A stretch of DNA of 45,671 nt, taken from the NCBI GenBank assembly GCA_023382435.1, contig JAHDVS010000015.1, positions 1-45,671 on the forward strand. Direction: 5' to 3'. The translations under genes were made by a program, and so were the position numbers. This DNA comes from Thermoleophilia bacterium. GTDB taxonomy: Bacteria; Actinomycetota; Thermoleophilia; Gaiellales; Gaiellaceae. Position 1 is the stretch's first letter; every line of letters starts with the position of its first letter. Shown here piece by piece: positions 7,070 to 9,485 of this stretch. The notes under the pieces are model-generated. The model ran no database searches and was not told the origin of the DNA. It was given only the letters and a program-made list of their open reading frames with translations.

Positions 7070-8008
7070 GTGGGCCGCGTTCGGATCTTCGCCATCTCGG
7101 GCGCGGCCCTGCTCGTCGCGATCGCCCTCGCGGCCGCGGGCGCCGGCGAGGCGCCGGGGGCGCTGACGGGCTGGCAGGCGCTCACGCTCGGCACGGTGCA
7201 GGGGCTCACCGAGCTCCTGCCGATCTCCTCGTCCGGCCACCTGATCGCGGTGCCCTGGCTGGCCGACTGGACGTATCTCGAGACCCACGACGAGTTCAAC
7301 CAGACGTTCGACGTCGCGCTCCACCTGGGGACGCTCGTCGCGGTCGTCGCCTACTTCTGGAGCGACGTCCTGCGCCTCCTCGGGGCGCTGCTCGGCTCTG
7401 TATCGCGCCGGCGGATCGAGAGCGCCGACGAGCGGGTCGCGTGGTTCGTCGTGGTCGCGACGATTCCGGCGGGACTCGCGGGAGCGCTCGGGGAGGACGC
7501 GATCGCAAAACACCTGGGCGAGCCCTGGCAGATCGCGATCTTCTTGACCGTGTTCGGCGTCCTGCTCTGGGTCGCCGATCGCGCCCGTCAGGACCGCGAG
7601 ATGGCCGACCTCGGCCTCGGGCACGCCGTCGCCATGGGCGTCGCGCAGAGCCTCGCGCTGATGCCCGGTGTCTCGCGGTCCGGAATCACGATCACCACGG
7701 GGCGCTTCCTCGGGCTCGACCGGGACTCGGCCGCACGGTTCTCGTTCCTGCTCCTGATCCCGACCGTGCTCGGCGCCGTCGTCTGGAAGGGCGTCAACGA
7801 CGTCCTGCTCGGCGAGTTGCCGGACGGCTGGAAGGGCCCGTTCGTGGTCGGGACGCTCGCCGCGATCGGCAGCGGGCTGCTCGCGATCCGGGGGCTGCTC
7901 GGGTACGTGCGCCGCCACGACTACTCGGCGTTCGTGGTCTACCGCCTGATCGCCGCCGCCGTGATCCTGCTCCTGATCGCGACCGGCGTCCGCGCGGCCA
8001 CGTTCTGA
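7070..8008 (+). CDS. uppP: undecaprenyl-diphosphatase (BacA/UppP)
   Basis: Removes a phosphate from undecaprenyl diphosphate to recycle the lipid carrier for peptidoglycan; integral membrane protein. The 312-residue sequence has the two BacA signatures: Q-G-L-T-E-L-L-P-I-S-S-S-G-H-L (about 44-58) and LMPGVSRSGITITTGRFLG (about 199-217), which form the active site with the E-L-L-P-I-S and P-G-x-S-R-S-G elements. About eight hydrophobic segments are present, starting with a short N-terminal one. GTG 7070 lies 10 bases after a TACGAT -10, so the mRNA should be nearly leaderless; no Shine-Dalgarno sequence is present. Loss or excess of this enzyme family changes bacitracin sensitivity. Confidence 0.95.
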   Translation: MGRVRIFAISGAALLVAIALAAAGAGEAPGALTGWQALTLGTVQGLTELLPISSSGHLIAVPWLADWTYLETHDEFNQTFDVALHLGTLVAVVAYFWSDVLRLLGALLGSVSRRRIESADERVAWFVVVATIPAGLAGALGEDAIAKHLGEPWQIAIFLTVFGVLLWVADRARQDREMADLGLGHAVAMGVAQSLALMPGVSRSGITITTGRFLGLDRDSAARFSFLLLIPTVLGAVVWKGVNDVLLGELPDGWKGPFVVGTLAAIGSGLLAIRGLLGYVRRHDYSAFVVYRLIAAAVILLLIATGVRAATF

Positions 8009-8038: not shown

Positions 8039-8602
8039 ATGCGTGTCCCGGCGGGCGCCGTGCGGCTCGGCCTCCTCTGCCTCGCGATCGTCGCGATCGG
8101 AATGATCCGGCCGCGCCTGACCCAGGGGAGCGCGGGCTGGCTCCTGCTCGCGTGCGGGCTCGTCACGGTCGCGGGCGCCGCCGGCCTCTCGGTCGCGACG
8201 CGCCGCGTCGCCGCGAGGCTACCGCTGGTGGGCGGCTCGCTCAGAGCGGCGCAGGCGGTGCTGGTGCTCGTACGCCGAACCGGCCTGCCGTTTCTCGGCC
8301 TCGCGTTCTTCCTGGTCTGGACGTTCGTCTACCTGGGTCTCTGGTGGTACCACCCGGAGGAGGCATTCGCCGGCCTCACCGACAGCCCGCGCTTCGCCGA
8401 CTTCTTCTACTACGCGGTCATGACCGCGCTGACGTCCCCGCCCGAGGACATCGTCGCGACGAGCCGCGGCGCACGCAGCGCGACGATGATCGAGATCCTG
8501 ACCGGGATCGCGCTCCTGACGACCTACCTGACGAGCCTGCTCGAGGCGCGTCGCGCCCGGGCCCGGGAGGAGGCAAAGCCCCCAGCGGGCCCCGGTAGTT
8601 GA
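8039..8602 (+). CDS. two-TM ion-channel-like membrane protein with non-standard pore loop
   Basis: A 187-residue protein with four hydrophobic segments (about 8-22, 33-52, 85-104, 148-168). The last two flank a re-entrant-looking segment DFFYYAVMTALTSPPEDI (about 121-138), which lines up with the pore helix and filter of K+ channels of the Ion_trans_2 group (typically S-x-T-T-V-G-Y-G-D). Here the filter position reads TSPPEDI and the TVGYG signature is absent, while the following helix IEILTGIALLTTYLTSLLE fits. So the fold is recognisable but potassium selectivity is not supported. ATG 8039 lies 7 bases after TAGCCT, indicating a leaderless transcript. It follows uppP by 30 bases on the same strand. 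Confidence 0.6.
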   Translation: MRVPAGAVRLGLLCLAIVAIGMIRPRLTQGSAGWLLLACGLVTVAGAAGLSVATRRVAARLPLVGGSLRAAQAVLVLVRRTGLPFLGLAFFLVWTFVYLGLWWYHPEEAFAGLTDSPRFADFFYYAVMTALTSPPEDIVATSRGARSATMIEILTGIALLTTYLTSLLEARRARAREEAKPPAGPGS

Positions 8603-8639: not shown

Positions 8640-9485
8640 GTGACCGATGACCAGGATCTGGGTCTAGCCGCCGCCGGCACTGCCGGCGCGGAGGCGCCGG
8701 CGGCCGCGTCCCGCAGGCTCGCCTGGGCGGTTGCGGGGCTGGCCGCGCTCGCTCTGACGGTGGTACTGGCGTGGCTGCTCGTCCTCCGGGGCGGAGTCGA
8801 CCCGATCTCCGTCGAGCAGGCGGTGCAGGGCTTCCGCGCGGGGGACGCGCCGGCCGTTCCGCTCCCGCCCGGCGTGCCCGTGCCCGAGAGCGGCGTCTAC
8901 GTCTACGACACGCGCGGGTCCGAGTCCGTCGACATCTTCCTCGGACAGACGCACGACTACCCGGAGGTGACCACGATCGCCGTGCGCCCCGGCGGCTGCG
9001 GGCTGACGCTCGCCTGGGCGGCGTTCGACGAGCGCTCGACGACCTGGGAGCTCTGCCCCGCCGGCGGCGGCTGGGAGATCGCGCGCTACACCGAGTACCA
9101 CCGGTTCTTCGGCACGGGCGAGGAGACCGACTACCGCTGCGAGCCCGGGTCGGTGTGGCTGCCCGGGAGCGCCGAAGCCGGCTCGGCCTGGACGAGGACC
9201 TGCGCGACCTCGATCACCGACGAGGTCGCGTCCGGTCGCGTCGTCGGGATGGAGACCGTCCGGGTGGACGGCACGGAGGTGGCGGCGGTCCACGTCTCGC
9301 TCGTGGCCGAGCTGCGAAAGCGGACTCGCGGCCAGGGCACGTTCGACGCCTGGCTGCGGGTGCCGGACGGGCTTCCGGTCAGGCTCGCCTGGCAGAACGA
9401 CAACGTCTCGAAGTCGATCGCGGGTGAGGTCCACTACACGGAGCGAGCGGAGCTCACGCTCGCGTCGCTCGCGCCGGAGCGCTAG
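8640..9485 (+). CDS. membrane-anchored protein of unknown function
   Basis: A 281-residue protein I do not recognise. After an Ala-rich cytoplasmic tail, one transmembrane segment spans about residues 27-50 ([20 protein letters not shown]), and the remaining about 230 residues should be outside the cell. This part has four Cys (in [22 protein letters not shown] and TRTCATS), probably two disulfides, and beta-strand-like alternation. The C-terminal half ([20 protein letters not shown] followed by [11 protein letters not shown]) resembles lipoprotein-like or LolA-like sheets in outline, but I would not assign a family. GTG 8640 is set by the promoter just upstream. The stop overlaps that of scoB on the other strand. 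Confidence 0.75.

Follow-up and report, generated by a model that had tools for sequence, protein, structure and literature searches.

Natural P-loop channels that combine the K+-channel fold with the absence of TxGYG are few among those characterised, and each of them has broadened the range of known filter geometries. The NirBac channels of Anaeromyxobacter and Gemmatimonas are devoid of the K+ filter, form tetramers and are non-selective for monovalent cations, and NirBac1.2 does not pass Ca2+ (PMC4607889). NaKTs of Tsukamurella paurometabola (PDB 5CBG/5CBH) has a proline-rich filter, is non-selective and depends on Ca2+, whose binding within the filter opens the channel (PMC5052707). TbIRK of Trypanosoma brucei is without TxGYG, yet it still favours K+ over Na+ by a factor above 7 (PMC5429665). 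The protein analysed here, which is 187 aa long and has a conserved SPPxD segment at the filter position, offers a small test case for the evolution of selectivity once the filter glycines are gone.

The window, i.e. the whole stretch of DNA that was analysed, comprises 45,671 nucleotides, and the gene under study is the ORF at 8039-8602, whose translation contains ADFFYYAVMTALTSPPEDIVATSRGARSATMIEILTGIALL, the stretch with TSPPEDI. Its parts are collected in Table 1. The Pfam scan of the protein assigns it to Ion_trans_2 (PF07885; residues 101-169, 24.6 bits for a gathering cut-off of 22.5 bits), with a score of 26.2 bits in the genome-wide profile search. The overlapping match to DUF1345 (PF07077; residues 93-152) stays at 20.4 bits, below the gathering cut-off of 31.8 bits. 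No match to IRK, the Kir cytoplasmic domain, was found by Pfam, and the chain stops soon after M2. The NCBIfam scan assigned neither this protein nor the scanned AFSPTD, DUF1345-type and NPAPD proteins considered below to a family, and the PDB sequence search returned nothing significant, the weak matches being either the K+ channels TOK1 and Lmo2059 or unrelated proteins. TM2 ends in TRRVAAR, which would be consistent with the positive-inside rule. In M2, the alignments place G156 at the position of the K+ channel M2 glycine, and E152 is common to SPPxD and NPAPD proteins.

Table 1. Gene of the filter-less K+-channel-like protein and its putative parts, in window coordinates
Feature	Position	Strand	Basis or remark
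Gene of filter-less K+-channel-like protein	8039..8602	+	187 aa plus stop
TM1, extra N-terminal helix, residues 5-22	8051..8104	+	AlphaFold2 model, 59 sequences
TM2, extra N-terminal helix with cytosolic extension, residues 29-60	8123..8218	+	AlphaFold2 model
Slide-like amphipathic helix, residues 66-81	8234..8281	+	AlphaFold2 model; best structural matches are Kir channels
M1 outer helix, residues 83-104	8285..8350	+	AlphaFold2 model, structural alignment
Pore helix FADFFYYAVMTAL, residues 119-131	8393..8431	+	AlphaFold2 model, ortholog alignment
Filter segment TSPPEDI, residues 132-138, at the place of TVGYGD(I/L)	8432..8452	+	Alignments
M2 inner helix, residues 143-179	8465..8575	+	AlphaFold2 model, alignments

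The preliminary description had recognised a channel-like protein with TSPPEDI in place of TVGYG, and this central claim stands. In the family HMM alignments, the GYGD of canonical channels (TVGYGD, TIGFGD etc.) falls without gaps on PPGD/PPED, so that TSPPED occupies the place of the TxG[YF]G of K+-selective channels; the concern that homologues with a normal filter might align elsewhere is removed, since their GYGD lies exactly at SPPED. In an alignment of 59 sequences comprising SPPxD, NPAPD, AFSPTD and DUF1345 proteins together with K+ channels, the two glycine columns of the K+ channels (21/21 each) hold P134 and G/E/N136 in the SPPxD family, and the column of D137 is the sole nearly invariant one. 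Profile-profile comparison of the family with canonical K+ channels gives a score of 64.5 (96.7%), versus 11.5 for the reversed control and 26.0 for the best of 60 shuffled ones, and on sequence grounds this match exceeds chance. The view that the protein contains a K+-channel-type pore module with a truly replaced filter is thus supported both by the alignments and by the predicted structure.

Homologues sharing the motif, for which a search had been suggested at the outset, do exist: four full-length orthologs with ISPP[G/N]DI (47-58% identity) were found in the same bacterial order (genomes G022, G308, G514 and G509), two of the orthologs being present in actinobacterial MAGs. The gene is carried by 5 of the 129 genomes of the order, and its distribution is therefore sporadic; since searches of viral contigs and plasmids found no copies in either, an origin from mobile elements was rejected. 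Among the five orthologs, the filter reads TSPPEDI in the window, ISPPGDI in three proteins and ISPPNDI in the remaining one, with S133, P134, P135, D137 and I138 invariant. The pore helix retains 8 invariant residues out of 13, versus 0/12 for the last 12 residues of the chain; pore helix and filter are the best conserved parts of the protein and the tail varies freely, which argues for selection maintaining the altered filter. Judged by this sequence conservation, this is a conserved gene and not that of a damaged channel, and its product belongs to a small, uncharacterised family. Distant relatives in another family of the class (genomes G641, G695 and G786) have ANPAPDLI at the filter place. 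In the NPAPD relatives L024, L025 and L097, the outer loop that leads into the pore helix carries a conserved cysteine pair (AACPAD...PCAGAF), and a disulfide between the two cysteines could lie at the mouth of the pore.

The AlphaFold2 model computed with the 59-sequence alignment has a pLDDT of 91.5 and a pTM of 0.81, values to be read with the presence of real K+ channels in that alignment, which favours their fold; the model obtained from three orthologs alone (pLDDT 52) was of no use. The filter is modelled as coil between the helices of Table 1, and the succession M1, pore helix, filter and M2 is found in the predicted model only. Over residues 79-178, the model can be superposed on the pores of Kir, KirBac and other K+ channels, with rmsd values of 1.3-1.6 Å over ~90 residues and Z reaching 11.8, although Z values below about 13 are not unusual for helical proteins with this structural aligner. 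Every one of the best 50 Foldseek matches is the pore of a tetrameric channel of K+, NaK or related type, and none of them reaches an E value of 0.001. Because of the composition of the input alignment and of these modest Z values, the sequence evidence is stronger than the structural evidence. According to the model, the architecture is made of two extra N-terminal helices, a Kir-like slide helix and an M1-P-M2 pore. The two-TM channel domain initially described is therefore recognisable as far as its pore module is concerned, but two further helices precede it. The fear of a fold unlike that of a tetrameric pore was not borne out, as the predicted monomer adopts the fold of such pores.

Taken together, sequence, model and analogy point to a cation channel that shares the K+-channel fold, assembles as a homotetramer and has a non-K+ filter; it would be weakly selective or non-selective for monovalent cations, and a probability of roughly 0.55 is given to this reading. 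The protein would be a four-helix member of the K+-channel superfamily, in which two extra N-terminal helices and a slide helix precede M1, pore helix, filter and M2. Assembly would most likely be as a homotetramer round a central pore, a homomer being favoured because the genome of the window has no other Ion_trans_2 protein. In K+ channels, the filter glycine next to the tyrosine takes a backbone conformation closed to proline. Since proline replaces both the first filter glycine and the tyrosine, [T/I]SPP[G/E/N]DI should be unable to take the K+ filter geometry, so that the four carbonyl rings of that filter could not form as usual; with this geometry lost, the pore would probably pass monovalent cations with little selectivity. 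NirBac and NaKTs provide precedents by analogy, whereas the K+ preference of TbIRK without TxGYG counts against a non-selective pore.

With its filter gone, the pore might just as well have ceased to conduct. In the alternative that survives best, although unlikely, the protein would be a tetrameric membrane sensor or scaffold in which the axis is blocked by the SPPxD segment and no ions pass. The missing filter glycines and the stiffness of the prolines would suit such a role, as would the existence of the uncharacterised DUF1345/AFSPTD set, which has the same pore motif and is also without any known filter. However, conservation is highest in the pore helix, the filter and the post-filter residues, and M2 retains its glycine, as would be expected in a working pore; no signalling domain is attached, and the filter-less NirBac relatives do conduct (PMC4607889).

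A channel permeable to divalent cations or gated by Ca2+, with Ca2+ or Mg2+ bound either by rings of E136 and D137 or by backbone sites that the prolines create, is more doubtful still. This idea draws on NaKTs, with its proline-rich filter opened by bound Ca2+ (PMC5052707), and on the acidic pair that each subunit places at the outer mouth; the preliminary description had noted this pair and listed a path for divalent cations among the possibilities. The alignments split this acidic pair: D137 is the ordinary aspartate of GYGD, nearly invariant in the 59 aligned proteins, and E136, replaced by G, G, G and N in the four orthologs, is private to the genome of the window. Given this non-conservation of E136, a divalent path through the pair is not supported. 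Furthermore, the prolines of NaKTs occupy other filter positions, and NirBac1.2 is impermeant to Ca2+ (PMC4607889). As to a silent or modulatory subunit joining canonical K+ channel subunits and spoiling or tuning their filter, each of the four ortholog genomes has at least one canonical Ion_trans_2 channel, but these differ in architecture, and as the profile search found no second Ion_trans_2 or DUF1345 match in the genome of the window (2.73 Mb, 96% complete), this genome holds no partner and such a heteromer was rejected as highly improbable.

The gene neighbourhood was also considered. The uppP/BacA gene (undecaprenyl-diphosphatase, 268 bits), at 7070-8008, ends 30 bp before the channel gene and has the same direction; an operon of the two was discarded and the adjacency is given no functional weight, because the orthologs inspected showed no adjacent uppP. 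The product of the downstream ORF at 8640-9485 (281 aa) has a membrane segment at its N-terminus and no Pfam match. Orthologs L013 and L018 share their neighbours, namely a diverging gene for a PfkB-like kinase upstream and, directly downstream, a flippase-like gene (lysylphosphatidylglycerol synthase TM type, by eye).

Beyond the close family, the SPPxD proteins match both the Ion_trans_2 and the DUF1345 models; for the latter, all five orthologs match at E values up to 1, with 7.4e-6 as the best. Of the 199 genomes of the class, 66 have matches to the DUF1345 model, just 12 above the cut-off; many of the matches are AFSP[T/A]D proteins, and seven others, with T[YF]QVSD or a close variant of it, are DUF1345 proper. 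Strong Ion_trans_2 K+-channel genes (G361:C26, G372:C27, G428:C126, G446:C2 and G520:C16) have DUF1345 matches at the same coordinates, which suggests that DUF1345 lies in the ion-channel clan; L063, the one inspected among the double matches, has a GFGD filter. The AFSP[T/A]D proteins (L042-L064, L030, L034 and L010) are uncharacterised membrane proteins of wide occurrence, in which AFSP[T/A]D stands at the filter place of a K+-channel-like pore motif; most of them are under the DUF1345 cut-off, and those scanned have no NCBIfam name. In one protein of the AFSPTD type (L060:1492-1905), the segment reads FGPTLEG and the nearly invariant filter aspartate is lost.

Within the class, DUF1345 and AFSPTD/WSPAD proteins share with the protein at 8039-8602 the P-x-[FL]-x-D-[YF]-x-[YF] pore helix, the filter aspartate, the absence of GYG and an R/K after the filter, with weak cross-matches both ways; DUF1345 and AFSPTD proteins differ by their filters (T[YF]QVSD or AFSP[T/A]D), their size of about 220-300 aa and another N-terminal part. 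Profile-profile scores are 39.3 for SPPxD versus AFSPTD (controls at most 31.3) and 29.1 for SPPxD versus DUF1345 (controls at most 26.0). A direct link from the DUF1345 profile to K+ channels proved weak (2%), the connection being carried only via the SPPxD/AFSPTD intermediates and HMM cross-matches on the same genes. In the pore-module tree (106 columns), SPPxD and NPAPD proteins form one clade (support 100/98), which joins AFSPTD and DUF1345 proteins apart from the canonical channels with moderate support (88/79). Given this support and the weak direct comparison, one common filter-less branch is plausible and not proven. The larger proposal, that SPPxD, NPAPD, AFSP[T/A]D and DUF1345 proteins make up a single large unrecognised branch of the K+-channel superfamily, present in many bacteria, which lost the K+ filter once and retained the aspartate together with a filter of proline or QVS type, new in both geometry and selectivity, is put forward tentatively. 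No literature treating DUF1345 as a channel was found, and the sequence bridge suggests that the members of this widespread family, which is of unknown function, are channel-like pores.

For the protein at 8039-8602, the preferred reading of a weakly selective or non-selective cation channel can finally be set against known systems. With canonical K+ channels (KcsA, the Lmo2059/KvLm pore), it shares M1, pore helix, filter position, filter aspartate and M2 glycine, but TVGYG in the former is [T/I]SPP[G/E/N] in the SPPxD family. TbIRK is similarly K+-channel-like without TxGYG, but it is eukaryotic, and its filter GGYVG keeps glycines and the K+ preference (PMC5429665). NaKTs resembles the protein at 8039-8602 in being a pore-loop channel from an actinobacterium and in having an unusual filter rich in prolines; however, TSPPEDI corresponds neither to TVGDG of NaK nor to LPMGNGPLSP of NaKTs, where both glycines are kept (GNG) and prolines stand at the T75 and D80 places (PMC5052707). 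In the present protein, prolines are at the G77 and Y78 places and D80 is kept, and there are four membrane helices versus two in NaKTs. The NirBacs likewise have a K+-channel-superfamily pore with TxGYG replaced, and they are homologs of KirBac, whose pores are, with those of Kir, the structural neighbours of the model; they differ in carrying the Kir cytoplasmic domain, in contrast to the two extra N-terminal helices and the absence of an IRK match here, and SPPxD does not appear among their filters described in the available part of PMC4607889 (e.g. TTGTD in NirBac2.1). SPPxD may thus represent a new filter variant within a known kind of system, with DUF1345 as a possible larger story.
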